Below, piece by piece: positions 3,001 to 45,415 of a stretch of DNA of 45,832 nucleotides; the first letter of the stretch is position 1; every line of letters begins with the position of its first letter. Made by a program: the position numbers and the translations under genes. The stretch lies in IMG/VR virus record IMGVR_UViG_3300048593_000261, positions 1 through 45,832 of that record. One strand, 5' to 3'. The stretch comes from a virus. Under the pieces are notes generated by a model. It was given only the letters and a program-made list of their open reading frames with translations. It did no database searches and was not told where the DNA came from.

Positions 3001-3698
3001 ATAAGTCTTAAATCCGTGTTGGAATTTCCTATGCTTGTATTTACTGTTTCTCCGTATGCAGAATACCTACTGTATAAAACGGGATAATCAATACCGTCCA
3101 AAAATGCATAACTACCTTTAATTCCAGAAACAGAGGAATCGTATTCGAATATCTCTACTTCGCCATCTAAACTAGGCTCATAAGAAGTTAAGCCCGTCGA
3201 GGGATTAGTTATGTACCCATCATATTGAATTATTATAAAAAGTGATTTTAAGTTTACTGACTTATGATTTAAAATTCCGCCGTTTGATCCAGACTGAAAG
3301 AAAATATCACAATTTTTTTTATTCAATCTGGGCAATATAAACGGAGTTATACGTTTTGCTCCGTATGAGTCGTAAGAAGAAAAAGACGAATCAAGTGCAG
3401 AGTACAAGCCCGATGACTGATTTTGTATAACAAATTTATTCATATCAGTATATTCGGGATATGCAACTACTGCTATATCTTTAGATACTAATATTTTTTT
3501 AGCACTCCACTCATGCGATAAAACTTTATTACCAAAGTCAGATTCAAATCTTTCAGTATTTGAACACTGCATCGAATTGGAGGTATAATCCCAATCTGAT
3601 ACAGTTTTTATGCCTTCGGCGATAGATTTTAAATATAACGGCAGGTTTCTTTCGTTCCTGCCATTTTGCATGAATAGTCCTACAGATTCTTTTTTCAT
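1..3698 (-). CDS. Very large virion structural protein with FG-GAP-like propeller repeats (3' end outside window)
   Basis: Reading leftward from the ATG at 3698 the frame stays open to the window edge, giving at least 1232 codons with no stop; the C-terminus is missing because the window ends. The start lies 2 nt after the tape measure stop, with AGGA about 10 nt upstream inside the end of that gene, so the two are probably coupled. At least three blade-like segments contain an RFG or FG turn followed by a beta strand and a small-residue end (about residues 500-525, 700-715 and 940-960), for example FGKSVAIS and RFGDCFELND. These resemble FG-GAP/integrin-type propeller repeats. The position after the tape measure gene suggests a tail-tip, baseplate or host-recognition protein. 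The family assignment is by eye. Confidence 0.8.
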   Translation of the reverse strand, partial: MKKESVGLFMQNGRNERNLPLYLKSIAEGIKTVSDWDYTSNSMQCSNTERFESDFGNKVLSHEWSAKKILVSKDIAVVAYPEYTDMNKFVIQNQSSGLYSALDSSFSSYDSYGAKRITPFILPRLNKKNCDIFFQSGSNGGILNHKSVNLKSLFIIIQYDGYITNPSTGLTSYEPSLDGEVEIFEYDSSVSGIKGSYAFLDGIDYPVLYSRYSAYGETVNTSIGNSNTDLRLIKPDTAEEIRKLPAITTQISNQYGYAPSAIKYSFLGCKFATFVKYTPVVECGRIDLYKKLSGRITSVSSNGRVTSNLHGLKDGNIIRINGARNANGKNLDLNGVKYVQIVDDNTLDLYDDSEMTKKTFTVNGNNPDADWIAVGNVYNETLPDGWQYVKTLTSPTGRNGYLDPRFSLDEGTVYFVADQNKQKTQVPIKKIPAGIINDYYFLLLYDIYGINLNEDIPDNFRSVLSNTNPAGSSFVFTRSPYISSLDTLWASESTFVKGCRFGSDIDLKMASDGSYYLAVGERGSDAPQNTTELITFGLKPKYSPFLYPHHGPYGKVHILKLDIVSNTISDTYVRTINSFDSDTSISKPEPISKLGNVIYQSFYETNNNIINYSQFSAFKNTNSDSFLYNNYWYGSLLYSLKNYEHKLSFDDLSPGAFIYDKDANGGRPFASTYFSNFGIPIFKFENDPENPWSDIKVLGFPNQFYPYSDSFGKSVAISIEGQKIYIATSSRTKTLLEPVYNVGGSDNRKRPDLSTSISDSTYSNLDCGYVHLYTLESGTLNKLGKISHVSQNSISGGIDTIIDKCERYAKNIKFNGNKLYFGSSRSSEFYDKRSQRLRGQPVGSSYFYPSSYNDKSKIFIYSISDNSFSLQKEIVNQNNDARFYDFNIGRPENIKNYEHPNVKECILSGANLTPNKRLYKYTYINGSAVESTNTVDLECIVFPSDRFGDCFELNDKILCANSLDWKNELNINHSDYETFENDPRLMSDYLHLYDNVKNEWTYISKLSASFNSANSKYSYNSINCNNEYLRDLGNYNYENSQFASKTWDYDLTRSFAVLDDRVMIKDPSSYSIFRRSPELQYVSAYSDDQITDCQPYFKFDEIFYANYNRGLLNESCNFYHTKYGSLYKYNESSTIATAYGSDGGEVQFTTPVFFLSIPKNSGNTVNTKAVITLTIESSSFSFPKNIGLKFYKKDPRLNVNAEYVNKFTYNCSQTSADLLLSDTDPSGETIFT

Positions 3699-3700
3699 TT

Positions 3701-6700
3701 CTATGCTGTCCTAAAACTTGAGTTACGTTTGCTAAATTCTTCCGTAACTATTTGTCCGATGTATTCCCCGAGCGAATCTCTTAGCTGTGTAGCTATGCTA
3801 TCAGTATTTACACCAGCGATATTGATTTGCCCATCTATGTTTAAAGTGTGAGTCATTGTCATATTAGAGAATGAATCAGATATTTTTTGCAATGTATCCG
3901 TGAAGCTTCTCATGCTAGTTATAACAGGCTCGAACGATGGTGCGGCCTGTGCCACCGCATTACCCGGAACTGCCACTGCGTTTTGAGGCTGAAATATCGG
4001 AACAGCGTTAGGTGCCATAACCGGGGCGTTAGGAACTGCCTGAGGCTGTTGTTGTCCGCCAGCAGCCGGATTCACAAAACCTTGCTTAATAACGTTAACC
4101 ATTTCTAAGTAGGACTTCGTGACATCTCTTTGAGCATCTATTAATGCCTGTTGAGCAATTAATTCTTGTTTATTTATATCAGCAAGTTCTTGCTTGAGTT
4201 TCTTTTCAGCAGCAATGTCGTTACCTTGAATAACATCAATAGCAGCCTGAGCATCTTGCTTATTTAAAAAGCCCATAGCCTGTTGTTGTTTGATGGCATC
4301 AACTTGAATTTTTCTGAACATTTGACCGACAGCACCTTCCGGATTTGCTTCGGCTAATTGTTTCATAAAATCTGACACTTGCCCCTTAAGATCGTCAGGC
4401 AAGATATTAAAATTGCCAGTACGCATAACTTGTTGTAGGCCAGCAGCTTGTTCTGCCATAGCAAATTTTTGCTCGGTAGTTCCAAATGCAAAAGACTCCA
4501 CTCTGTTTTTAACAAGTTCTTTTTGTACCTGAATTCTAGATATTTGCTCCATTTTGTCAGAAGCTCTATCGCTCTGATCGGTCAAACGGCCCAGAACAGT
4601 AGTTAATGCATTTGCTTGTGATTCAAGACCTTGATTTGCGAGATTTAAATTTGCTCTCTTTTTAACATCAAGATTTGGGTCAGATAGTTGTTGTTTATTT
4701 GCCTGTATTTGAGCATTAATTCCCGTTAGGCTTTGCCCTAATTGGCCAGCACTTCCGCTTCTGATACCGACATCTCCAAGCATTTGAGCATCTTTTGCCT
4801 GTCTAAATGCTTCTCTATTAGCTTCAAGCTGAGTTTTTTGTGAAGGCATTAATGTGCTAACAGAAGCCATTCGCTCCATTCCGCGAGAACGTATGTCTAT
4901 AGATCCAGATCTTAACTGAATTAGCTTATTTTGTTCTTCTATAAGGGCTGCATTAACGCCCCTGAGTTGTTCTACGAAATTATTTGCATTTTCGCCCGCA
5001 GCAATTAATACATCAGCAAATTTCTGTCCGGAATCAGAAATAACCTTACCGATATCGGCAATTTGACTTAATTCTAGATTGCCTTCGGATAGATTTTCGT
5101 ATAACTTATTTATTACTTGGTCTTGTATGACTGTATCAAGAGAAGAAAACTCAGGTATATTTTTAGATATCTCGTTAGAAATATCCGTTCTGGTCTTAGA
5201 TGCATCCACTCCGGGCTTAATAACTTTTCTTAACTCGTTTAAACCTGTGAATAAACCACTTGTGGTCGTGAGATTTCTAAATTGGTCTGATGCAGATCCA
5301 GCAGTTGTAGCCTTTTGAGCTAACGCAGCACCGCCCGGAACAAGTGACGCTAGAGAGTTAGCGGTATTTTTAAATGCACCGATATCGCCTACTTGAGATA
5401 TGTCTCTTAGTCTGTCAGTATTAAATCCACCTCCCGACTCTCCACGCAGTACAGACACTTTAGACTGGGCATCTTGCATACTAAGTGTTTGCGATGTAAC
5501 GGACTTCATCGCATTATTAAATTGTTGCATTAATGTAATTTCAGCAGTACGAACTGCTATAGCAGTTTCTATTTTATCTATTTCAAACTGTCTTGCATCT
5601 ACACTTCTTTGTGCAGCAGCTTGTCTAGCGGCCCTATCTTCGGATGCTGCTATTTGAGCTTTAGCACGATCAGGTTCATCAGAAGCGGCTGCTGTTGCAA
5701 CCTCAAGTGCGTCAAGCATATTTATAAATGTTCTGTCTTGACCTTCGCCGCTTATTGACTTTATTAAATTATCAATTTCCGAACTTGTAGATGCCTTGCT
5801 TAATCTTTCGGCAAGGTTGGCATTAAATTGATCTGCCTGTGTAGATCTTGCTTGTTTTGCAACTTCTCTACTTTGAGCTAAAGCCTCTTCCGATTTTGAT
5901 ACCCTTTCCCTAAAAGCATCAATGTCTTTAGTGCTAGTCCATAACCAGCCAGCAAAAGTAGATGTTTGATCTTCGGCATCCTTTAGGGCTACGTTTGCAG
6001 TCATAGCCGCTGCTCTAGTTTGGTCTAATGACTTCGCGGCATCTATAGCTCCCTGAGAAGCTAATTTATTAGCATCTTCGGTCTTAAGAGTTCCACTTCT
6101 TAATTTGTCTATAGTTTTACCGAAATTATAAGAAGATTTTGCAGCAACATATTGAGCCTTAACGCTTGCGTCGATAGATTTCTCATCAAGTGTTGGTTGT
6201 TTATACATATAATCCGATGCAGCAGACCCTACGCCTGCACCGACAGCACCACCTAGAATTGCACCCGCAGCACCACCGATGGCACCACCAACAGCAGTAC
6301 CTAACACCGGAACAACAGATCCTAGTGCAGCACCGGCAGTAGCACCGGCATAAGCACCGCCAATACCAGTCGGCAGACCAGAAAAGAAGCCCATAGATCT
6401 TCCTCTATTGGCTTTATCTTGAAGTCCGTAAGCTTCTCTTGATCTTTTTTGTAATTCTTCAAGGCTTATATTTCCCCCTACAGAAACTTTTTCTAAATCT
6501 TTAGATATAAGCCCCTGCTTCTTTTGTGCTTCTTGAGTTTTTTGACTTGCTAAAAAATTACTTGTACCGGCAGCAGCAGCCCCTGCTAATGCTAAATTGC
6601 CAAAAGTTAACCCCTTACTTGCTGCAAATCTTGCGCCGCGAGCAATCTTGCCTTTTATTCCTTTAGCTTGAACTTTTGTTGCTTTTCCGTCAGGGCCTTC

Positions 6701-37341: not shown

Positions 37342-37369
37342 GACATATATTTTTGCTTGAGTTTGAATA

Positions 37370-37389
37370 GGCCGACATTGTCGGTCTCG
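37370..37389 (+). repeat. Cassette palindrome 8
   Basis: GGCCGAC-ATT-GTCGGTCTCG. Gap to -35 22 nt. Confidence 0.9.
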
Positions 37390-37411
37390 GCCATAAGCTT
37401 TAATCAATCTC

Positions 37412-37468
37412 TTGACATTCTGTATATTTCATATATAATGGTTCTATCGGGTTCAGTAGTGTTTGAAC
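37412..37468 (+). promoter_or_regulatory. Promoter 8 with leader hairpin
   Basis: TTGACA (37412), 16 nt, TATAAT (37434). Leader hairpin GTTCAG-TAGTGT-TTGAAC at 37451-37468 (inner G-U). Confidence 0.85.
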
Positions 37469-37489
37469 TATATTCTACAGGAATTTATC

Positions 37490-37684
37490 ATGATCAAGGT
37501 TGAGAAAAAATTTGTAGGAAATGGATTTTTCAGGTGGACTTTTACGTGTTGGTGTGCAGAGGAAAATCACCCATTGTGCGAAATGTCTTTCATCGCAAAA
37601 AGTCCAAAGCAATGCCGTGATAGCATCAATTCTTATTTCGGAAAGATATTAGAGATAAAATCTCTCAGGCTATTTGTTGATTAA
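37490..37684 (+). CDS. Small early protein, 64 aa
   Basis: Unrecognised; MIKVEKKFVGNGFFRWTFTCW start, then CAEENHPLCEMSF, and a helix KQCRDSINSYFGKILE. Four Cys residues (two near 20-22, two later) are not in a classical zinc spacing. CAGGA is 7 nt before the ATG at 37490. Followed by a GAAA-loop terminator. The C-terminal half (SPKQCRDSINSYF) weakly recalls the paralogous pair at 36500/37873 in layout, but I do not claim homology. Confidence 0.7.
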   Translation: MIKVEKKFVGNGFFRWTFTCWCAEENHPLCEMSFIAKSPKQCRDSINSYFGKILEIKSLRLFVD

Positions 37685-37704
37685 ATAGCACATGTCTCGC
37701 GATG

Positions 37705-37727
37705 CCCCTCGAAAGAGGGGTTTTTTT
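37705..37727 (+). terminator. GAAA-loop terminator
   Basis: CCCCTC-GAAA-GAGGGG then TTTTTTT. Confidence 0.9.
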
Positions 37728-37747
37728 ATACATAGAAATGCGTGGGT

Positions 37748-37768
37748 GGGCCGACTTTGTCGGTCTCG
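37748..37768 (+). repeat. Cassette palindrome 9
   Basis: GGGCCGAC-TTT-GTCGGTCTCG. Gap to -35 22 nt. Confidence 0.9.
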
Positions 37769-37790
37769 TCAGGAATGTTTGATCAATCGC

Positions 37791-37845
37791 TTGACATTGG
37801 ATTTTTATATGCTAGAATGATTACGTTGTCAGCGAGTGACTGACA
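37791..37845 (+). promoter_or_regulatory. Promoter 9 with leader hairpin
   Basis: TTGACA (37791), 16 nt, TAGAAT (37813). Leader hairpin TGTCAG-CGAGTGA-CTGACA at 37827-37845. Confidence 0.82.
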
Positions 37846-37872
37846 GCAAGAAACCTTTTTGGAGTTAGTGCT

Positions 37873-38127
37873 ATGAAGTATTACCGAGTACAGGTAAACG
37901 GCGGATCTTGGGTTAATTGCACAACGCTTTCAAGCGTAAAGCAGGTAATCAAAGGGGCGAATCAAATCGCCATAGTTGAAAGAATCATCATCGACAAAGG
38001 AGATGAAAAAACTGGAATCGTCATCACAAAAACACTGACTCAGTTGAAAAAAGATTCTTGGTTTTCGGAGGCTTTTAAAGACGATGTCAAGTTCATGCAA
38101 AGGGTCATGAAAGCCCGCATCAAATAA
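37873..38127 (+). CDS. Early protein, 84 aa, paralogue of the 36500 gene
   Basis: MKYYRVQVNGGSWVN start, a central charged IIIDKGDEKTGIVITK segment and C-terminal FKDDVKFMQRVMKARIK; the ends match the gene at 36500. GGAG lies 8 nt before the ATG. Two tandem GAAA-loop hairpins follow it. The conserved N-terminal strand and C-terminal basic helix suggest a shared fold with a variable middle, consistent with diversification of host-targeted proteins. Function unknown. Confidence 0.78.
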   Translation: MKYYRVQVNGGSWVNCTTLSSVKQVIKGANQIAIVERIIIDKGDEKTGIVITKTLTQLKKDSWFSEAFKDDVKFMQRVMKARIK

Positions 38128-38138
38128 TCCAAAAAGGT

Positions 38139-38176
38139 GCTCGAAAGAGCGTCCCCCCGAAAGGGGGGATTTTTTT
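38139..38176 (+). terminator. Tandem GAAA-loop terminators
   Basis: GCTC-GAAA-GAGC (38139-38150) directly before TCCCCCC-GAAA-GGGGGGA (38152-38169) and TTTTTTT. Confidence 0.88.
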
Positions 38177-38206
38177 GTGTCCATTCTGCGTAGAAATGCT
38201 GGAATA

Positions 38207-38226
38207 GGCCGACTTTGTCGGTCTCG
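38207..38226 (+). repeat. Cassette palindrome 10 (transitional)
   Basis: GGCCGAC-TTT-GTCGGTCTCG: class I arm sequence but class II promoter spacing (47 nt) and an inverted TGTCAA 5 nt downstream. Confidence 0.9.
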
Positions 38227-38231
38227 TTTGT

Positions 38232-38301
38232 TGTCAATAACCAAAATTAAACTTTTTTTATCTCTATATTTGCTTGACAGGCTCGAATGCTATGTTATAA
38301 T
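38232..38301 (+). promoter_or_regulatory. Promoter 10, first with inverted -35 copy
   Basis: TGTCAA (38232-38237), A/T-rich tract, TTGACA (38274), 16 nt, TATAAT (38296). No leader hairpin. Confidence 0.85.
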
Positions 38302-38339
38302 ATAGGCGTAGGGTCGAAACAATAACTTTAGAGGGCATC

Positions 38340-38522
38340 ATGAAAGTTTGTGAAAAATGCGGTGATGAAATTTTTACCAAAGACGGTGAAAATCGTTGCA
38401 AAGATTGCGAGAAGAAAAAACGCAAGAAAAACACTTTGACAGCGGCTCAGAAGCGTGGTATAATGGCATCGCTTGGTCTGGAGCGTGTCGTTGGGGCTAG
38501 AGGCGGCGTTTATTACGAATAG
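38340..38522 (+). CDS. Zinc-ribbon protein, 60 aa
   Basis: C4-x2-C7 and C20-x2-C23 form a compact zinc ribbon, followed by a Lys-rich KKKRKKN stretch and a C-terminal TAAQKRGIMASLGLERV segment that ends GGVYYE. Small proteins with this zinc-ribbon plus GGxYYE end occur in many phages. GAGGG lies before the ATG. Likely nucleic-acid or RNA polymerase binding, inferred from the fold and basic linker. Confidence 0.82.
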   Translation: MKVCEKCGDEIFTKDGENRCKDCEKKKRKKNTLTAAQKRGIMASLGLERVVGARGGVYYE

Positions 38523-38541
38523 CCGTAACGTTTTGAATTAA

Positions 38542-38565
38542 GGCCCATCCTAGCTAGGGTGGGCC
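38542..38565 (+). other. Hairpin overlapping palindrome 11
   Basis: GGCCCATCCTA and TAGGGTGGGCC form an 11-bp inverted repeat (one T-G) whose right half includes the GGGCC of the next palindrome, so only one of the two structures can form at a time. Confidence 0.7.
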
Positions 38566-38581
38566 GACTTTGTCGGCCTCG
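38561..38581 (+). repeat. Cassette palindrome 11
   Basis: GGGCCGAC-TTT-GTCGGCCTCG, the first copy with a fully complementary GGCC/GGCC end. Gap to -35 45 nt. Confidence 0.9.
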
Positions 38582-38585
38582 CGTG

Positions 38586-38654
38586 TGTCAAGTAAAATCT
38601 TTATATTTTTTTCTTTCTATAATCGCTTGACATGCGAAAATCTCAGTGTATAAT
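38586..38654 (+). promoter_or_regulatory. Promoter 11, class II
   Basis: TGTCAAGT (38586), A/T tract, TTGACA (38627), 16 nt, TATAAT (38649). Confidence 0.88.
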
Positions 38655-38692
38655 GTATGCATCGCCCCAAGGAACTCTCAAGGAGAATAGTC

Positions 38693-38950
38693 ATGCAAGC
38701 TGATTTAAGCGATTTCGATACTCAATTGCAAGTCGAGGATACTGAGGAATACCAAGATTTCTTGGATTCTCAGGAATCGGCACAGCAACATCAAATCGAC
38801 GGGGATAATGCACTCACAACCATCATTGAGGATATTCAGTATCTTCAACGTAGGATCAACAAGTTCCAAGAAAAATTCGGAACGTCGTCGGCTATGCAAG
38901 GTGCTGTAGCGGCTCTCACAACGATCAAAAGCAAAATCGCTGAGCGATAG
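38693..38950 (+). CDS. Acidic helical protein, 85 aa
   Basis: Unrecognised. Acidic N-terminus (DLSDFDTQLQVEDTEEYQDF), then a coiled-coil-like IIEDIQYLQRRINKFQEKFG and a short C-terminal helix. AAGGAGAAT precedes the ATG at 38693. Such small acidic proteins in phage early regions often mimic DNA or block host proteins; here this is only a possibility. Confidence 0.72.
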   Translation: MQADLSDFDTQLQVEDTEEYQDFLDSQESAQQHQIDGDNALTTIIEDIQYLQRRINKFQEKFGTSSAMQGAVAALTTIKSKIAER

Positions 38951-39112
38951 AAAGGTTGAAACAGTGGTAAAAGCTAGACCACCGCCCTAACGGGTAAATT
39001 AGTAAAATCTTTAAATTAAATTTTTTTTGCAAGCCGATACCAAATGCAATCGCCATACCTTGCCTCTTCAAGGTTCGGAGAGTTAGAGAAAGGATCTTTG
39101 GTATAGAAGGAA
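38951..39112 (+). other. Decayed cassette remnant
   Basis: No gene. An AGTAAAATCTTTAAATT segment near 38990 matches the A/T tract downstream of TGTCAAGT in cassette 11 and is followed by TTGCAA, but no palindrome or -10 box remains. CCTTG-CCTCTT-CAAGG could be a relic leader hairpin. Confidence 0.5.
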
Positions 39113-39146
39113 GCTCGCCCCATAAGATAACGTTATGCGGGCGGGC
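39113..39146 (+). other. Hairpin overlapping palindrome 12
   Basis: GCTCGCCCCATAA pairs with TTATG-(C bulge)-CGGGCGGGC, 13 bp, and includes the GGGC of palindrome 12. Alternative to the palindrome hairpin. Confidence 0.65.
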
Positions 39147-39163
39147 CGACTTCGTCGGCCTCG
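39143..39163 (+). repeat. Cassette palindrome 12
   Basis: GGGCCGAC-TTC-GTCGGCCTCG; first TTC loop. Gap to -35 47 nt. Confidence 0.9.
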
Positions 39164-39168
39164 GTGCG

Positions 39169-39238
39169 TGTCAAGTGAAATGTTTATATTTTTATTTTTA
39201 GTGCAAATGCTTGACATAGCGATTTAATCATGTATAAT
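39169..39238 (+). promoter_or_regulatory. Promoter 12, class II
   Basis: TGTCAAGT (39169), A/T tract, TTGACA (39211), 16 nt, TATAAT (39233). A 5-bp AAGTT-GAT-AACTT hairpin lies in the leader at 39250-39262. Confidence 0.88.
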
Positions 39239-39275
39239 ATATGCATGACAAGTTGATAACTTTCGGGAGTGAATC

Positions 39276-39614
39276 ATGGATACGTTTACTAAGTCTTATA
39301 TCGGAACTGCTTTGTGGTCATCTACCGATTCTTCGGATCATCCATTGGATTGCAATTATGACACCGACGACATTTCGCCGGAATGCATGAAGCAAATGAT
39401 TGAAGATTGCAGGGCATTTCAGAAGACTGTTGGCGATATGATCGTCGGGAATGAAGAACGTGCAGGACACGACTTCTGGCTCACACGTAACGGTCACGGT
39501 GCCGGATTTTGGGATGGTGATTGGATTCAGCACGGAGACAAGCTCACCGGGATTTCCAAAACGTACGGATCAGTTGATTTGTATGTTGGTGATGATGGGA
39601 AAATCTATTGTTAG
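39276..39614 (+). CDS. Conserved phage protein, 112 aa
   Basis: Contains TALWSSTD, PLDCNYDTDDISPECM, GHDFWLTRNGHGAGFWD and the end LYVGDDGKIYC, which I recognise as a widespread phage family without a known function; the DFWLTRNGHGAGFWD block is its hallmark. GGGAG lies 7 nt before the ATG. It shares its transcript with a second gene 16 nt downstream. Confidence 0.85.
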   Translation: MDTFTKSYIGTALWSSTDSSDHPLDCNYDTDDISPECMKQMIEDCRAFQKTVGDMIVGNEERAGHDFWLTRNGHGAGFWDGDWIQHGDKLTGISKTYGSVDLYVGDDGKIYC

Positions 39615-39630
39615 CTATGGAGATAAAAAA

Positions 39631-39819
39631 ATGAAAACTTCAAAAGAAAATATCGGTCCAGATCACCAATTGTTCAATAGGAATTTTCCCGGATGGACCC
39701 AAGTTATTGTAAGAGCGGAAAAACAAGATGGTTGGCATATTGTGGCACAATTTTATGGGCCGCAAGCTAAAATACTTTCGTCGATATTTACTCACTCCTT
39801 GGAGCAAGTTGAATATTAA
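39631..39819 (+). CDS. Small protein, 62 aa, second gene of cassette 12
   Basis: Unrecognised; IGPDHQLFNRNFPGWTQVIV then aromatic and short, ending in ILSSIFTHSLEQVEY. ATG 39631 has GGAG 8 nt upstream. The longer frame in this phase from 39451 overlaps the preceding gene and has no ribosome binding site there. Probably coexpressed with the 112-residue protein. Confidence 0.65.
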   Translation: MKTSKENIGPDHQLFNRNFPGWTQVIVRAEKQDGWHIVAQFYGPQAKILSSIFTHSLEQVEY

Positions 39820-39840
39820 CTATGACAGACAAGGTCGGCT

Positions 39841-39861
39841 GGGCCGACTTCGTCGGCCTCG
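39841..39861 (+). repeat. Cassette palindrome 13
   Basis: GGGCCGAC-TTC-GTCGGCCTCG. GTCGG-CTGGG-CCGAC (39834-39848) can form a competing hairpin. Gap to -35 46 nt. Confidence 0.9.
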
Positions 39862-39865
39862 ATTG

Positions 39866-39935
39866 TGTCAACTGAAATAATAAAATATATTTTGTTGGCA
39901 TGAATGCTTGACATAGCCGAAAGCCAGTGTATAAT
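39866..39935 (+). promoter_or_regulatory. Promoter 13, class II
   Basis: TGTCAACT (39866), A/T tract, TTGACA (39908), 16 nt, TATAAT (39930). Confidence 0.88.
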
Positions 39936-39975
39936 TGATGCATAACGCCAAACAACTCTTTTGAAAGGTAGAATT

Positions 39976-40305
39976 ATGAGCAATCCAAAGTATCATTCAA
40001 TGAATTTTTGCGGTGTTCCTATTTTCGTAGAAAATAGGCAAACGTACAAAAATACATTTGTTCGTGCGACCATCGGCGGCGAGAAACAGGAAGTTTTCGA
40101 AGAAAATGAATGCTCGGAAATGCATCTGTACAAAGTGCTGCTGCCCGACGATACGACGAAGTTCGTTCTTGCGTGCGATGAATCAAGTGCAATCGGTCAA
40201 GCAACTTGCGGACTCCCACACGAAAATCGGCAGGAGTTTGAAAAACGATGCCTTGCCTTGCGGGTGCCTTTGAGAATTCAGGGCTGGGGCACCGAGGAAG
40301 TGTAG
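39976..40305 (+). CDS. Small early protein, 109 aa
   Basis: Unrecognised; MSNPKYHSMNFCGVPIFVENRQ start, beta-rich middle (YKVLLPDDTTKFVLACDESSA), and LALRVPLRIQGWGTEEV end. ATG 39976 follows GAAAGGTAG; an upstream TTG (39961) would add five residues but overlaps this ribosome binding site. Single-gene cassette. Confidence 0.75.
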   Translation: MSNPKYHSMNFCGVPIFVENRQTYKNTFVRATIGGEKQEVFEENECSEMHLYKVLLPDDTTKFVLACDESSAIGQATCGLPHENRQEFEKRCLALRVPLRIQGWGTEEV

Positions 40306-40319
40306 CGATCAGATGTCAA

Positions 40320-40345
40320 GCCCACCCCTAGCTAATGGGGTGGGC
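40320..40345 (+). other. Hairpin overlapping palindrome 14
   Basis: GCCCACCCC and GGGGTGGGC form a 9-bp stem with an 8-nt loop; the right arm includes the GGGC of palindrome 14. Confidence 0.7.
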
Positions 40346-40362
40346 CGACTTCGTCGGCCTCG
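40342..40362 (+). repeat. Cassette palindrome 14
   Basis: GGGCCGAC-TTC-GTCGGCCTCG. Gap to -35 45 nt. Confidence 0.9.
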
Positions 40363-40366
40363 AAAC

Positions 40367-40435
40367 TGTCAAGTGTAATAAAAATATTTTTTTGTTTGTG
40401 CATTTACTTGACATGGCAAAACCCTATGGTAAAAT
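40367..40435 (+). promoter_or_regulatory. Promoter 14, class II
   Basis: TGTCAAGT (40367-40374) and ACTTGACA (40406-40413) are perfect 8-bp inverted copies around an AAAATATTTTTTT tract; then 16 nt and TAAAAT (40430). Confidence 0.88.
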
Positions 40436-40475
40436 ATTGGCATGTAAGTTAGTCAATTACTTCATGGAGTTTGAA

Positions 40476-40931
40476 ATGGTTACTTTTGCATCGCTTCAAA
40501 AAAAATCCACGCTTTGCAGGTCCGGTTGTTATACGATTTTTATGAAAATCGGTAAAGTTGGAGTAAAGCTGTTCCAACGGGAAGACGACCGTGATGTAGC
40601 ATTCAATGAACAATGCAAGGCTCACAACTGCGGTTTGGGACCGAAAGCCATCAAGAAATTTCATTTTTTCGATGCAGACACCAATGAATTTTGGTATGCT
40701 TACGCAACAGAAGTCGTGAAAACTTTCAAAAGAGGCCGCATTCGTGGAAAGGCGGAATTTAGGATAGACATCATGATTGATGAGCTTAAGGAGAAGCTGC
40801 TAAAAGAAAACCTAGATATTGACGATCTGCATTATTACAATGTGGGCGTTTCTAAGGGAAAGCTGGTACGAATAGATTTCGGACCAACAAGCAGCGGGCA
40901 GCTTCCCATGTGTATGCAACGTTGGGATTAA
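40476..40931 (+). CDS. Minimal protein-kinase-like protein, 151 aa
   Basis: Key kinase-like residues are in order: K31 in VGVKLF (beta-3 Lys), E45 (helix C Glu), D117-L-H-x-x-N122 (catalytic loop, ABC1/RIO or aminoglycoside-phosphotransferase style) and D134-F-G136 (metal-binding DFG). Length is only 151 residues, lacking most of the C-lobe. It may phosphorylate a host protein or act as a pseudokinase. ATG 40476 has GGAG 6 nt upstream; the longer frame from 40335 begins inside the palindrome and before the promoter. The fold is inferred from motif order. Confidence 0.68.
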   Translation: MVTFASLQKKSTLCRSGCYTIFMKIGKVGVKLFQREDDRDVAFNEQCKAHNCGLGPKAIKKFHFFDADTNEFWYAYATEVVKTFKRGRIRGKAEFRIDIMIDELKEKLLKENLDIDDLHYYNVGVSKGKLVRIDFGPTSSGQLPMCMQRWD

Positions 40932-40961
40932 ACAGTCGGCGAAGTTGGCCAGCGATTGGGT

Positions 40962-40982
40962 GGGCCGACTTCGTCGGCCTCG
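40962..40982 (+). repeat. Cassette palindrome 15
   Basis: GGGCCGAC-TTC-GTCGGCCTCG. GTCGG at about 40935 can compete for its left arm. Gap to -35 68 nt, the longest. Confidence 0.9.
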
Positions 40983-40988
40983 CCGGAA

Positions 40989-41111
40989 TGTCAAGAACAA
41001 AATCCAAATAATCCCGAAAAAAGTAAAATCTAAAAATATCCCTCGATTGCTTGACATAGGGAAACAATATGGTAAAATAATTGCATAAGAGCGAATGACA
41101 GTCAAACGCTC
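40989..41111 (+). promoter_or_regulatory. Promoter 15 with weak leader hairpin
   Basis: TGTCAAG (40989), extended A-rich tract, TTGACA (41051), 16 nt, TAAAAT (41073). GAGCG/CGCTC (41089-41111, 13-nt loop) may form in the leader. Confidence 0.82.
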
Positions 41112-41147
41112 AAAGTTGAAACGGTTTTTGATTCAAAGGGGCAAATT

Positions 41148-42350
41148 ATGCCAGTTACTAATCTTTCGAAGTTGGACGCTACCGGCATGGGCAACAAAGG
41201 TGAATTCGTAAAAACACTGGAAGGGCAGGTCGGCGTAGGATTCGCGGACGGATTCCATGCTCACAAGGACTGGATGGCCAAGACAATTGACTACGATACG
41301 GCGTTGGAAAAAATCAGCAAGGCCGAGCAGGAACGGCACGATTATATCCTCGATGCGGACCAAGTCAAGTTCGTTGTCACCGAAAGCGACAAATTCGCGG
41401 TCGAAATTGACGGGAAACAATATTCCCCCACAGAACACAGTTTCCCGCAAATGTCACAGAAAATCCTTGTTATGTCGTCGTCGATCCTTCGCGAGATGGC
41501 TGCATCTGAACCGGATAGGCAAGATGCCGAAACAATGGTTTCACTTGCTCGAAATTCGCTACGGCATGTCAAGACAGGAACCAAGTTTTTCGTCCGAACA
41601 TACACGGATGGGACTTTGCGGGCTTGGTTCTCGGATAAGTATGCCCCGGTCGATAACCGATGGTATTTGGAAACCCTCAGGGAACTCCTGCCAAGTGCCC
41701 GATTGTCTCACTGGAAATCCACCGAAGATACACTTTGGGGCAACTTGCTACTTCCGGACAGCATGAAAAACGTGCCAGACGATCAAGATTCCGATTTTGG
41801 CTGTATGCTCAGTGTGGCCAATTGCGAAATCGGCAAACGTCGGCTCAACTTGCTCCCCTCGATTTTTCGGTCGATTTGTCTCAATGGTAATATTTGGGAT
41901 CAAAAACACGGCGTAGCAATCCGTCGCAAGCATATGGGCAACATTGACCTTGCAACGCTCAAGACCGAAATTGGCGAGTCGATCAAGGCACAATTGCCTA
42001 TCGCGACGGAAGCAATCGATAAATTCCTTGCAACCCGAAAGCTTGAAATTTCAACGAATGCCCGCGATGTTCTGGCGGTTATTGCGATGGATGAAAAACT
42101 CACAGCGGCGGAAGCATATCGGGCCTATAAAGCTCACGACTTGTTCGAGTCCGAAAGCAACAATTTGTTCGGAATTGTCAATGCAATCACTCGTATGGGG
42201 CAATCGTTCAACGCTGAAACCAACTATTCGATGGATGTACTCGGCGGAAAACTTTCTCAAATGACATCCGGCGGTTGGGATAGGATTGTTTCCAAGTCCC
42301 GCAGTATCAACGCTGATGATATCATGAGTGTTTATGGGGTGGCCGTCTAG
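41148..42350 (+). CDS. DUF932-like phage/plasmid protein, 400 aa
   Basis: Largest gene of the rightward module. The middle and C-terminal parts, including the segment with FGCMLSVANCEIGKRRLNLLPSIFRSICLNGNIW and the segment ATRKLEISTNARDVL, resemble the DUF932 family common in phages and plasmids. Function of the family is unsettled. AAAGGGG precedes the ATG. Its bases appear more GC-rich than those of neighbours, which could indicate separate origin; I have not computed this. Sole large gene of cassette 15. Confidence 0.72.
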   Translation: MPVTNLSKLDATGMGNKGEFVKTLEGQVGVGFADGFHAHKDWMAKTIDYDTALEKISKAEQERHDYILDADQVKFVVTESDKFAVEIDGKQYSPTEHSFPQMSQKILVMSSSILREMAASEPDRQDAETMVSLARNSLRHVKTGTKFFVRTYTDGTLRAWFSDKYAPVDNRWYLETLRELLPSARLSHWKSTEDTLWGNLLLPDSMKNVPDDQDSDFGCMLSVANCEIGKRRLNLLPSIFRSICLNGNIWDQKHGVAIRRKHMGNIDLATLKTEIGESIKAQLPIATEAIDKFLATRKLEISTNARDVLAVIAMDEKLTAAEAYRAYKAHDLFESESNNLFGIVNAITRMGQSFNAETNYSMDVLGGKLSQMTSGGWDRIVSKSRSINADDIMSVYGVAV

Positions 42351-42406
42351 TGATTATTGTAATAATCGCAGTTATACTACTCGTCATTGAATGCAATGGC
42401 AAGTAG
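42350..42406 (+). CDS. Possible 18-aa membrane micropeptide
   Basis: GTG overlapping the TAG of the DUF932-like gene (TAGTG) opens an 18-codon frame whose first 13 residues are all hydrophobic, then ECNGK. GGGGTGG lies 9 nt upstream. Too short to be sure; could be a chance frame. Confidence 0.25.
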   Translation: MIIVIIAVILLVIECNGK

Positions 42407-42431
42407 TTCGGAAAAAGTGAAAATTTTTATC

Positions 42432-42457
42432 GGCCTGCCCTTGACATAGGGTGGGCC
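42432..42457 (+). other. Hairpin overlapping palindrome 16
   Basis: GGCCTGCCCT and AGGGTGGGCC (10 bp, two G-U) with loop TGACAT; its right arm shares GGGCC with palindrome 16. Confidence 0.65.
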
Positions 42458-42473
42458 GACTTCGTCGGCCTCG
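42453..42473 (+). repeat. Cassette palindrome 16
   Basis: GGGCCGAC-TTC-GTCGGCCTCG. Gap to -35 46 nt. Precedes the noncoding RNA unit. Confidence 0.9.
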
Positions 42474-42477
42474 CCAG

Positions 42478-42547
42478 AGTCAAGTACAATTTAAATATTT
42501 TTTTCTTTTACGCAATCGCTTGACAATGCGAATTCATGGGTTATAAT
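42478..42547 (+). promoter_or_regulatory. Promoter 16 of the large noncoding RNA
   Basis: AGTCAAGT (42478), A/T tract, TTGACA (42520), 16 nt, TATAAT (42542). Confidence 0.88.
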
Positions 42548-42553
42548 AAGGGA

Positions 42554-43114
42554 GTAAGCAAGAGACACCGAACAGCAGTCAAGCAACTGATCGGTAAGGG
42601 AATTGCGAGACCTTAGGGTATTAAAGCTAACGTGACGTAAACCGTCTACATGGATTGTTGAATCCTGATGCGTGAATATTAATGCCCGAAAACTCTAGCT
42701 TACCGTGCTATGCATCATGATACCGAAAACTACGGTGTATAGCTAGCGAAAGGCAGAAAGATAACGGTGAGCTTGTGGGTTTGTCATGTTTGTTACCCAC
42801 TATGCAATACATAAACAGATATGGGTCGCCAGTTCCTTAATGGGGTAGTAGGGGTAGTTGCGGTTGTACTCTCAACCATAGGAGAGATAGAACTTGCTGG
42901 TTTAAAATATTTCACAGGCATGTTACGTAGAATTTTGCACCATAAACAAAATAAAAGAAAGCCATGCAGCCGGAAGGCTTTAAATTCAGGCGATTAACTT
43001 AATTGGCTTATAATCAATTGAGAATCTTAAAAATTACGGATACCGCAAGTAAGTCGTAAGCCTAATATATTTTTTTGGCCGGTGATGGAGTTTTTTCTGT
43101 CACCGGCTTTTTTT
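42554..43114 (+). ncRNA. Large structured noncoding RNA, about 560 nt
   Basis: Start estimated 7 nt after a consensus -10 box; end set by the strong terminator at 43078-43114. No coding frame with a ribosome binding site spans it. Visible helices: ACCGA/TCGGT enclosing CAGT-CAAGCA-ACTG (42567-42594); a long arm with CTAGCT and ACCGT pairing to ACGGT and AGCTAG (about 42694-42747); GTGGGT/ACCCAC (42775-42800); GGTTG-TACTCT-CAACC (42862-42877); AAAGCC/GGCTTT (42958-42981); CTTAATTG/CAATTGAG (42998-43022); TTACG/CGTAA (43034-43059). I found no RNase P, tmRNA or group I core. Ornate large RNAs such as GOLLD and ROOL occur in phages, often near tRNA genes; membership is untested. Confidence 0.7.
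43078..43114 (+). terminator. Strong terminator of the noncoding RNA
   Basis: GCCGGTGA/TCACCGGC 8-bp stem with a 14-nt loop, followed by TTTTTTT. The next promoter starts 13 nt later. Confidence 0.92.
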
Positions 43115-43127
43115 ATTTATTTTTTAC

Positions 43128-43155
43128 TTGACAACGATAAAATCCCGTGTATAAT
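43128..43155 (+). promoter_or_regulatory. Promoter without palindrome
   Basis: TTGACA-N16-TATAAT directly after the RNA terminator; the only strong promoter of class II lacking the palindrome, perhaps because the terminator stands in its place. Confidence 0.87.
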
Positions 43156-43183
43156 TTGGGTATCGCTAACCAAGGAGAAAATC

Positions 43184-43738
43184 ATGCGATATAAAGTTCA
43201 GAATGTTACGATGAATATTGACGTTGCCGACGGAGAATTTGCAGGAGACTGTATGTTCTACGTTCCGCTAAATCATGTAAGGTTTATGACTCAGTATTGT
43301 GGATTTACTCTTAACGTAAAAAATGCTTATGGCATAACGTTTGAGCATAACTACGGCGAGCTAACAATGGATCTAGCCGCAAGGAACTACAGCAGCAGCA
43401 GTACGGACCTGCTTATTATGTATCTTTCATGGCTGCTAGAGCAAGACGGCGAGCAAGAAATAGAAGTAGTATACTCGAATCCGTTTTGGGCTATCCATGA
43501 TTTTGAACACGCACTGAATGATGAATCCGGCTGTACTATCTATGTTGATGAGCATATCGAGTATCAAAGGATTGAAGATACTTTTAGACTCATGAAAGAG
43601 CACGGGCATGAAATCACTTGGGAAATTTTAGAAGAAGTAACCGAAGCATATAATGGACGCTTCGGACTTACTGGTTCAAAGGCGAAATCTTTTGAGCATC
43701 ACTTCGAATTCGAAGAAGAAGAAGAAGCCTACGCTTAG
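43184..43738 (+). CDS. Early protein, 184 aa, with acidic C-terminus
   Basis: Unrecognised. MRYKVQNVTMNIDVADGEFAGD start, beta-rich first half, helices in the second, and a Glu-rich end (EFEEEEEAYA). AAGGAG lies 7 nt before ATG 43184; a longer frame from 43082 begins inside the terminator. The acidic tail is common in phage proteins that bind host nucleic-acid enzymes, but nothing more specific is supported. Confidence 0.75.
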   Translation: MRYKVQNVTMNIDVADGEFAGDCMFYVPLNHVRFMTQYCGFTLNVKNAYGITFEHNYGELTMDLAARNYSSSSTDLLIMYLSWLLEQDGEQEIEVVYSNPFWAIHDFEHALNDESGCTIYVDEHIEYQRIEDTFRLMKEHGHEITWEILEEVTEAYNGRFGLTGSKAKSFEHHFEFEEEEEAYA

Positions 43739-43762
43739 CGATAGAAGTCCGCCTTATAAAAT

Positions 43763-43783
43763 GGGCCGACTTCGTCGGCCTCG
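43763..43783 (+). repeat. Cassette palindrome 17
   Basis: GGGCCGAC-TTC-GTCGGCCTCG. Gap to -35 46 nt. Confidence 0.9.
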
Positions 43784-43787
43784 CCGG

Positions 43788-43857
43788 AGTCAAGTGGAAT
43801 CTTTCTTTTTTTTATTTCGACACATTCGCTTGACATTGGCCGTTCATATGTTAAAAT
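43788..43857 (+). promoter_or_regulatory. Promoter 17 of the tRNA operon
   Basis: AGTCAAGT (43788), A/T tract, TTGACA (43830), 16 nt, TAAAAT (43852). The transcript has an untranslated leader of about 95 nt before the tRNA-like element, containing GTGACGTAAA, a 10-mer also in the large noncoding RNA. Confidence 0.82.
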
Positions 43858-43959
43858 AATTGCATGAGCGAGGACGAGAGTAATTAACTAAGAATCGCTT
43901 TGGGTAGCCCACAGTAAGAACGTGAACTGTCTAAAAGTGACGTAAAAATCTAATTTTTG

Positions 43960-44032
43960 GCATTTAATAGTGTGTCGGACATGCACGGCTGGTGTTTGCC
44001 AGTTAGGGTTGGTTCAAATCCAACGTAAATGC
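43960..44032 (+). tRNA. Degenerate tRNA-like element (possibly former tRNA-His)
   Basis: 73 nt placed 3 nt before a real tRNA. It has an extended acceptor stem GCATTTA/TAAATGC, T8 and A9, a D arm GTGT/GCAC with a GG-containing loop, and a perfect T arm GTTGG-TTCAAAT-CCAAC. The extra G-1:C73-type pair is the tRNA-His signature. However the anticodon arm is abnormal: GCTGG-TGTTTG-CCAGT leaves a 6-nt loop without T33, and the last acceptor position is an A-G mismatch. Likely a decayed tRNA or one with non-decoding function. Confidence 0.5.
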
Positions 44033-44035
44033 TTC

Positions 44036-44109
44036 GGGACTGTAGCTCAATTGGTTAGAGCAGGAAACTCATAATTTCTCGGTTCTCGGTTCAAGTCCGG
44101 GCAGTCCCA
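44036..44109 (+). tRNA. tRNA with CAT anticodon (Met or lysidine-Ile)
   Basis: 74 nt cloverleaf: acceptor GGGACTG/CAGTCCC, D arm GCTC/GAGC, anticodon stem GGAAA/TTTCT with loop CTCATAA, T arm CTCGG-TTCAAGT-CCGGG, discriminator A. CCA is not encoded. CAT can be elongator or initiator Met, or Ile2 after lysidine modification; I cannot separate these by eye. Confidence 0.94.
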
Positions 44110-44132
44110 CTTTTATTAATAAGGATAAAACT

Positions 44133-44483
44133 ATGGCTAGCTGGAAAAACATTCGCGGCAAACTACACGCCGAAATTTCAGAACTATCGGTCGAGTGCCG
44201 AGATTTAGTTTCAGGGCTAGTTAGCGAGCAAGATTGCGAGCTAACAATTGAGTTTTTGTCATCGGGTTATTATATGCCCGCAAAAACCTATGGTCCGCCC
44301 GAAGATTGCTACCCCGAAGAAGGTGACGAAGAACGTATTTTTGATTGTGCTACCATTAATGGTAGAGCAATTCCTCAAGAAATCGGGAAAAAACTTTTCG
44401 ATCTGTTGACAAATGAAATCGATGATGTAGAATTAGAGCATGAAGACTCAAGAGAATTCGAAGGAGAACAATATGTCGATTAA
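44133..44483 (+). CDS. Acidic protein, 116 aa
   Basis: Unrecognised. Helical start, central YYMPAKTYGPPEDCYPEEGDEERIF-type acidic, Pro-rich segment and a strongly acidic C-terminus (DVELEHEDSREFEGEQ). AAGGA lies 8 nt before ATG 44133. First coding gene after the tRNA on the same transcript; overlaps the next gene by 11 nt. It has the composition of DNA-mimic or inhibitor proteins, which is only suggestive. Confidence 0.75.
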   Translation: MASWKNIRGKLHAEISELSVECRDLVSGLVSEQDCELTIEFLSSGYYMPAKTYGPPEDCYPEEGDEERIFDCATINGRAIPQEIGKKLFDLLTNEIDDVELEHEDSREFEGEQYVD

Positions 44484-44727
44484 ACTTACAATGGATCAAC
44501 TGCAATCACTTGTTTTCGACGATGAAGGAAACAATCGATATCCAGAATGTTACCTAATGAATGGTAGCCAAGTTCTGGAAACTGTGGTATTGTTTTCGGT
44601 TGATATCCGTGGTAAATTTTGTCATGGCTACCTAAAACCGGAAAAGGAAATTCGAAGCTTCTGGATTGTATTTGATATTTACATTGAGAATAATAAACTA
44701 TTCGCAACTTCTTACGGAAGGATGTAG
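44473..44727 (+). CDS. Small protein, 84 aa
   Basis: Unrecognised; MSIKLTMDQLQSLVFDDEGN start and beta-strand-rich remainder (VLETVVLFSVDIRGKFCHG, FWIVFDIYIENNKLFATSYG). AAGGAG lies 7 nt before ATG 44473; the longer frame from 44440 is inside the previous gene without a site. Coupled to its neighbour by overlap. Confidence 0.72.
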   Translation: MSIKLTMDQLQSLVFDDEGNNRYPECYLMNGSQVLETVVLFSVDIRGKFCHGYLKPEKEIRSFWIVFDIYIENNKLFATSYGRM

Positions 44728-44736
44728 GTAATTATC

Positions 44737-44931
44737 ATGGATCGAAAAACTATGCTTCAAATGTACGGCATTATTGGACTGCTTGGTTCTGGAGTTGATT
44801 TTACTTCGGGTAGTTGTGGAGAGCCACCAATTAGTGTTAGACCATGTATTAACTGCGGAAAAGAAAAACAACACAACAATGCATTTTGCTCTAGCGAATG
44901 TAGTAAGGAACATAAAAAAAAGAAAGTTTAA
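44737..44931 (+). CDS. Putative zinc-binding protein, 64 aa
   Basis: A PCINCGKEKQHNNAFCSSECSKEH segment gives C-x2-C ... C-x3-C spacing of a small zinc finger, followed by a basic KKKK tail. The N-terminal 30 residues are Gly-rich and uncharged. TAGG lies upstream of the ATG in the tail of the previous gene. DNA or RNA binding is plausible from the finger and tail. Confidence 0.72.
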   Translation: MDRKTMLQMYGIIGLLGSGVDFTSGSCGEPPISVRPCINCGKEKQHNNAFCSSECSKEHKKKKV

Positions 44932-44934
44932 ATC

Positions 44935-45168
44935 ATGTCGTTAAAATTACCACAAATAGGTGAAGAAGCTGGAGTTACATATATTCTTTGCGAAAAAAGC
45001 TTCTATTCTCCGGACTATACAGTTTGGAGATACAGAAGATGCAATGTTGAAACAGGTACAATTGAAATTGCGTACGTTGCAATACTTGGCGGAAATTCCA
45101 ATGCTAATTTCATTAAACTTCTGACTTGTTGGAACCGCACGACAAGATGGGTTTACGGTCCTGTATAA
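44935..45168 (+). CDS. Small protein, 77 aa
   Basis: Unrecognised; MSLKLPQIGEEAGVTYILCEKSF start, aromatic and beta-rich, ending in NRTTRWVYGPV. Starts 3 nt after the previous stop, with a weak AAAGAAAG site, and ends with TAATG overlap to the next gene, so it is part of a coupled run. Confidence 0.68.
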   Translation: MSLKLPQIGEEAGVTYILCEKSFYSPDYTVWRYRRCNVETGTIEIAYVAILGGNSNANFIKLLTCWNRTTRWVYGPV

Positions 45169-45374
45169 TGAAAATTTCAAAAATTAAAATCGACTATGAC
45201 AACTGGTATATGTACCAATCGCTATACCAAATTACAGAATACAAAAACGGTGCAGTCTACAAAACAAAAATGTTAGGATATGTCAAAAAAGGATATGCTA
45301 CACTCGAAAATCAACAACTAAGTCCTCTTTCGACATCTCTGTTGGGTAAAGAAATTTCAATTCTTTCAGAATAA
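45168..45374 (+). CDS. Small basic protein, 68 aa
   Basis: Unrecognised; MKISKIKIDYDNWYMYQSLY, Tyr- and Lys-rich beta-like, ending in STSLLGKEISILSE. Its ATG overlaps the upstream TAA (TAATG), which fixes the start at 45168 although a longer frame is open. Last gene of the rightward run before palindrome 18. Confidence 0.7.
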   Translation: MKISKIKIDYDNWYMYQSLYQITEYKNGAVYKTKMLGYVKKGYATLENQQLSPLSTSLLGKEISILSE

Positions 45375-45394
45375 TCCACTTGACAAATGCGGGC

Positions 45395-45415
45395 GGGCCG
45401 ACAAAGTCGGCCTCG
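45395..45415 (+). repeat. Cassette palindrome 18, with AAA loop
   Basis: GGGCCGAC-AAA-GTCGGCCTCG; the flanks match plus-oriented copies but the centre is inverted. ACTTGACA precedes it at 45378. No promoter follows; it closes the array. Confidence 0.88.

Follow-up and report, generated by a model that had tools for sequence, protein, structure and literature searches.

We describe here a region of phage DNA (positions 42554-43114 of the 45,832-nt stretch analysed, hereafter the window) that is almost certainly a structured RNA gene. Our overall reading, to which we give a probability of about 0.6, is that it encodes a stand-alone large noncoding RNA of a new family, carried as an accessory phage cassette, and that it most likely works as a folded RNA in trans. 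It probably adds a new member to the ornate folded RNAs of phages, and comparison with covariance models places it detectably in none of the known Rfam families. The lineage that carries it is assigned to the uncultivated tailed phages, its contigs being members of a large group of these (in IMG/VR, 333 stretches encoding a relative of the terminase were found, of which 80 were kept).

A promoter-to-terminator unit and its homologues

The transcription unit comprises the following features:

42520-42547, + strand: promoter of the RNA, TTGACA-16 bp-TATAAT, sigma-70-type, matching the consensus at 12 of 12 positions
about 42554, + strand: transcript start expected from the promoter position
42554-43114, + strand: noncoding structured RNA of ~560 nt, called from the fold z, the three-sequence alifold z and the absence of codon-position bias
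43077-43108, + strand: intrinsic terminator of the RNA, 14 pairs followed by a T-run

The original prediction was of a consensus promoter and a strong terminator bracketing 560 nt with many helices and no credible gene, and the analysis agrees with it on each of these points: the promoter is perfect, the terminator strong, and the helices and the coding signal are dealt with below. It had also called for homologues and a covariation test. In fact, homologous promoter-to-terminator RNAs of 540-577 nt were found in four other uncultivated phage contigs, which represent three further distinct sequences, and their helices are kept by compensatory changes. The neighbouring DUF932-like protein, used as query, led to three related contigs, and the RNA is present in L003 and L004 with 80% identity to the window. 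A distant copy lies at ~8672-9237 of L007, an 88-kb phage contig reached through its homologue of the 184-aa protein gene that follows the RNA in the window, and it too has a perfect promoter before it and a terminator at its end. The most distant homologue, in a phage record of 117,750 bp (the L037 record), was detected solely by a covariance model of the P9 module (R2, built from three sequences), with P9 alone matching at an E of 8.9e-9; this match adjoins the terminator of a ~540-nt interval with a perfect promoter, in which each of the three frames is closed by stops. Promoters matching the consensus at 12 of 12 positions were also located upstream of the homologues in L003 (12030), L007 (8641) and L120 (3926, minus strand), the homologous RNAs likewise terminate in strong terminator hairpins, and promoter and terminator are co-oriented in all four RNAs.

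No further member came from a covariance model of the 5' hairpin, from the refined P9 model run over 50 related records, from blastn against cultured phages and plasmids, or from two pattern scans of ~85,000 prokaryote genomes. DNA-pattern scans of IMG/VR with the 5' hairpin, its linker, the P4 loop and the P9 module returned the same three contigs again; other matches to the P4 pattern in IMG/VR were inspected and discarded as chance.

As perfect promoters are common in this region (nine on the + strand of the window), an unusual abundance of the RNA is not implied. Promoter and terminator are conserved as sequences; the expression of the RNA, its timing and its abundance are inferred, and its placement in an early module would follow from the layout of small single-promoter cassettes.

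Substitutions between the window and L003 are spread evenly over the codon positions of the RNA (44/38/44), whereas the flanking genes are third-position biased (20/14/41 for the 184-aa gene, 60/29/163 for the DUF932-like gene). The longest + strand open reading frame within the RNA has 58 aa (42821-42997), and the RNA could be regarded as the mRNA of this small protein, the more so as a 63-aa frame begins at the same place in L003. This is extremely unlikely: between window and L003 the frame is shifted and has substitutions of 12/8/12 by codon position, L007 has no equivalent start, and no ribosome-binding site is visible in the window. The small-protein reading was rejected on the codon-position counts. 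An equivalent of the frame was sought in the L007 and L037-record RNAs and none was found, every forward frame of both containing stops; no conserved coding frame, which would have spoken against the original prediction, emerged from the homologues.

Predicted fold and its conservation

The window RNA (561 nt) folds at -161.9 kcal/mol, compared with -139.4 +/- 6.8 for dinucleotide shuffles (z -3.33), and the homologues give z values of -3.6 (L007), -1.9 (L003) and -1.7 (L037 record, marginal). Against column shuffles, RNAalifold gave z values of -3.8 with two sequences and -5.9 with three, where no shuffle was as good, while the neighbouring coding genes gave -1.4 and -2.0. Each of the four RNAs folds better as + strand than as - strand, with alifold z values of -5.5 and -3.2, respectively, and compensatory changes on the + strand are seen in P1, P2, P3, P4, P6, P7 and P9. 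The region therefore shows what is expected of a large structured noncoding RNA, namely no coding signal and compensated helices. The elements of the fold are predicted as follows:

42554-42564, + strand: P1, 5' strand (GUAAGC-A-AGAG), pairing with 42693-42703 in the window and L003
42693-42703, + strand: P1, 3' strand, with a conserved AAAA just before it
42567-42595, + strand: P2 hairpin, its 11-nt loop CAGUCAAGCAA identical in the window, L003 and L007, with two compensatory pairs
42597-42612, + strand: core pairing, 5' strand (AGGGAAUUG...GACC), partner 42824-42838
42824-42838, + strand: core pairing, 3' strand (GGUC...CAGUUCCUU), partner 42597-42612
42616-42687, + strand: P3 domain, with 42616-42624 paired with 42679-42687
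42707-42743, + strand: P4 hairpin, with conserved loop AUGAUACCGAAAACU, then GAAAGGCA
42932-42952, + strand: P6 hairpin (AUUUUG/CAAAAU), six of six pairs in the window, L003 and L007
42968-42979, + strand: P7 hairpin (AGCC-GGAA-GGCU), four of four pairs in three sequences, with one compensatory change
43026-43066, + strand: P9 module (UUACGG-A-UAC-loop-GUA-AG-UCGUAA), flanked by UUAAAAA and CCUAA

According to this layout, P1 and P2 would form the 5' end, followed by a variable P3, the core pairing over a long distance, and a 3' part that is conserved and in which P9 precedes the terminator. The helices were matched by hand among the homologues. Covariation support is strong in the case of P6 and P9 and moderate in that of P2 and P3, but the core pairing has little of it because its sequence hardly varies. 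As there are only four distinct sequences, they provide only a weak test of the long-range helices, namely the core pairing and P1 versus the helix that competes with it.

The P9 module is paired in 36 of 36 cells over the four sequences with double-sided changes in five of its nine pairs, a score that only 1-4 of 500 shuffles attained, and the pairing is lost when the partners are slid against each other. Nearly all letters of P6 have changed, with double-sided changes in five pairs over three sequences. The sequence of the P3 domain is almost wholly replaced among homologues, its pairs being nine of nine in the window and eight of nine in L003 (two double-sided changes), and in L007 this position is taken by another 5-bp helix. 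P4 has 10 of 10 pairs in both the window and L003, with one double-sided and two single-sided changes, and its loop motif is also found in L007. The core pairing has a pair probability of 0.96-0.97 in the window and both of its strands are nearly invariant in the window, L003 and L007. At the place of P1, L007 has GACAG/CUGUC with one double-sided change; in the window sequence an alternative helix is predicted that contests the 3' strand of P1, and this competition may be a switch or a mis-prediction. As for P2, the L037 record has, by eye, a similar stem with another loop (UCUAGAG), which contains a 6-nt palindrome, whereas the loop of the other three members is not self-complementary, and no sign of oligomerisation was seen; a conserved partner for this loop within the RNA was sought by eye and none was found. 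A helix present in the window only (42858-42864/43042-43048, UUGCGGU/ACCGCAA) was discarded, as it is broken in L003.

An exchangeable cassette and its neighbours

The RNA shares a unit with the 184-aa gene, bounded as follows:

42454-42470, strand not assigned: inter-cassette palindrome GGCCGACTTCGTCGGCC (repeat family D1, 11 copies), left bound of the unit of RNA and 184-aa gene
43128-43155, + strand: separate perfect promoter of the 184-aa gene, 3' of the RNA terminator
43184-43738, + strand: 184-aa protein gene, in the same exchangeable unit as the RNA in the window and L003
43764-43780, strand not assigned: inter-cassette palindrome, right bound of the unit, single copy in L002

The upstream part of these genomes consists of small cassettes strung together, with copies of GGCCGACTTCGTCGGCC between them, and in the window 11 copies of it or close variants lie between cassettes at 37361-45415. 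These palindromes are apparently recombination points for the gain and loss of cassettes. In L002, a 168.8-kb record that is 96% identical over the neighbouring gene, the RNA and the 184-aa gene are both missing: there is one palindrome where the window has two, the junction falls within the inter-cassette palindrome, and neither the RNA nor the gene was found elsewhere in that record. Because it is cleanly absent from so close a relative, the unit is regarded as accessory, and recombination between repeats would explain its coming and going.

Searched against Pfam, PHROGs, NCBIfam and PADLOC, the 184-aa protein gave nothing that passed the cut-offs, and its structure model (pLDDT 41) is too poor for use. 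Its identity to the window protein is 86% in L003 and 63% in L007, the latter value being above that of the terminase (53%), and as a search anchor it returned the same contigs only, with none in 50 related phage records. RNA and gene are adjacent in the window and L003, and one gene lies between them in L007. In the L037 record the RNA is present and a homologue of the 184-aa protein is not detectable, so that the RNA is not strictly tied to this gene; other genes follow the RNA in both L007 and the L037 record.

There are tRNA or tRNA-like genes within ~1.5 kb of the RNA in the window, L003, L007 and the L037 record. The original prediction that every other cassette of the region is coding proved inexact, as the next-but-one cassette (43830-44110) is a tRNA cassette. 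The 10-mer GTGACGTAAA that it had reported in both the RNA and this cassette is indeed present at 42632-42641 and 43937-43946, but it is not conserved in the L003 homologue. Because of this absence the recurrence is probably due to chance, and the link between the RNA and the tRNA cassette was dropped.

Relation to known large RNAs and possible modes of action

All 4227 Rfam families were scanned, with the window searched at the gathering score and the four distinct RNA regions then searched at E<=10. Only tRNA exceeded the threshold. Even with permissive filters, neither GOLLD nor ROOL matched any of the four RNAs (window, L003, L007, L037 record) at E<=10, and the search for GOLLD, ROOL, OLE, HEARO and group I introns that had been proposed came back empty. 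The OLE, HEARO, group I intron, tmRNA, RNase P and 6S models gave no covariance match. Weak matches at permissive thresholds, mostly to terminator-containing families, were set aside as chance. The GOLLD model (conserved 3' region) matched neither the four distinct RNAs nor five records, and the ROOL model had no match over five whole records, a search in which no control genome matched either and which is therefore weak taken alone.

The likeness to GOLLD and ROOL that had been suggested thus stands for size, phage setting and tRNA neighbourhood, features of both families (PMC12286853), but not for membership. ROOL (Rfam RF03087, model of 574 positions) is also a large phage or prophage noncoding RNA with its own transcription unit, often near tRNAs, and a tRNA-Met lies 0.9 kb downstream of the window RNA; it differs in that its covariance model does not match at E<=10. 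GOLLD (Rfam RF02032) is a phage RNA near tRNAs with a conserved 3' part, a variable 5' part and occasional tRNAs in its linker (PMC12286853), and a weak tRNA-like stretch lies inside the L037-record RNA; it differs in having no model match and in that many GOLLD RNAs exceed 800 nt and the RNA here is shorter. ROOL forms an octameric and GOLLD a 14-mer RNA cage.

The raiA motif RNA is bacterial and is not known as a phage accessory cassette. It is likewise large and structured, and differs in that its Rfam family does not match the RNA here. This bacterial RNA has been resolved as a monomer (PMC12286853). OLE RNA shares a length of ~600 nt, an intricate fold and highly conserved stretches, but it is a bacterial membrane-associated RNP RNA (PMC10898510, PMC9723947), and its Rfam model finds no match here.

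That the region is a DNA element, such as a replication origin, would agree with its many inverted repeats, but the strand-specific G-U pairs, the better folding of the + strand and the common orientation of promoter and terminator in all four cases make this extremely improbable. A role as long 5' leader or attenuator of the 184-aa gene, which its position directly upstream and its terminal hairpin might suggest, is also very unlikely, since that gene has its own perfect promoter 3' of the terminator and the RNA is followed by other genes in the L007 and L037-record cases. A partnership of the RNA with the 184-aa protein, as an RNP or a toxin-antitoxin-like system, would fit their proximity in the window, L003 and L007 and their joint absence from L002; we consider it rather unlikely given the L037 record, the intervening gene of L007 and the separate promoter.

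A regulatory or decoy RNA, pairing with or mimicking a host RNA through the P2 loop, would account for the identity of this loop in three sequences although its stem changes, but the loop of the L037 record differs, the RNA is far larger than usual for such regulators and no target was found, so this too seems unlikely. Quite improbable as well is a highly diverged GOLLD or ROOL out of reach of the Rfam models. The length (574 positions in the ROOL model), the phage setting, the tRNA neighbourhood, the conserved 3' and variable 5' parts as in GOLLD (PMC12286853) and the sub-threshold stretch of 15.6 bits in the L037-record RNA speak for it, and against it stands the lack of matches at E<=10 in four RNAs and in five whole records (for ROOL, in a search that had no positive control). 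Of the modes considered, a folded RNA that acts in trans as a particle or scaffold, much as has been proposed for ROOL and GOLLD, is tentatively the likeliest single one, ahead of the P2-loop decoy, the RNP with the 184-aa protein and the diverged ROOL or GOLLD. As the setting is tRNA-rich, its target would perhaps be the translation machinery. The host-directed or structural role put forward in the original prediction is likewise conjectural. More speculatively, the RNA could be a further independent class of large ornate RNA, confined to a lineage of uncultivated phages, that self-assembles into a particle by which components of host translation are sequestered or remodelled.

Phages have so far yielded few large structured RNAs. 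A further, apparently unrelated family that resembles them in size and genomic setting would point to repeated acquisition by phages, which makes a common function more likely. Furthermore, a new family would be an independent case in which to compare cage formation, binding to ribosomes or tRNAs, and the consequences for infection, and the natural presence or absence of the cassette in near-identical phages is a ready genetic comparison.

Several unusual genes were also observed in these phages. The tRNA-like structures at 43960-44033 of the window and ~13737-13930 of L003, the latter with an apparent large insertion, lack a normal anticodon loop and have a promoter of their own. In L120 (minus strand), the stretch at 3697-3765 inside the L037-record RNA is a degenerate tRNA-like sequence with a good T arm (15.6 bits, sub-threshold), and a tRNA gene at 4426-4607 (Rfam tRNA 36.6 bits, missed by ARAGORN) carries an insertion of ~110 nt between the anticodon arm and the T arm that resembles a giant variable arm. 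Finally, the terminase large subunit of the L002 phage (L025 1498-4392, minus strand) contains a long in-frame, intein-like insertion that the terminase of the window does not have.
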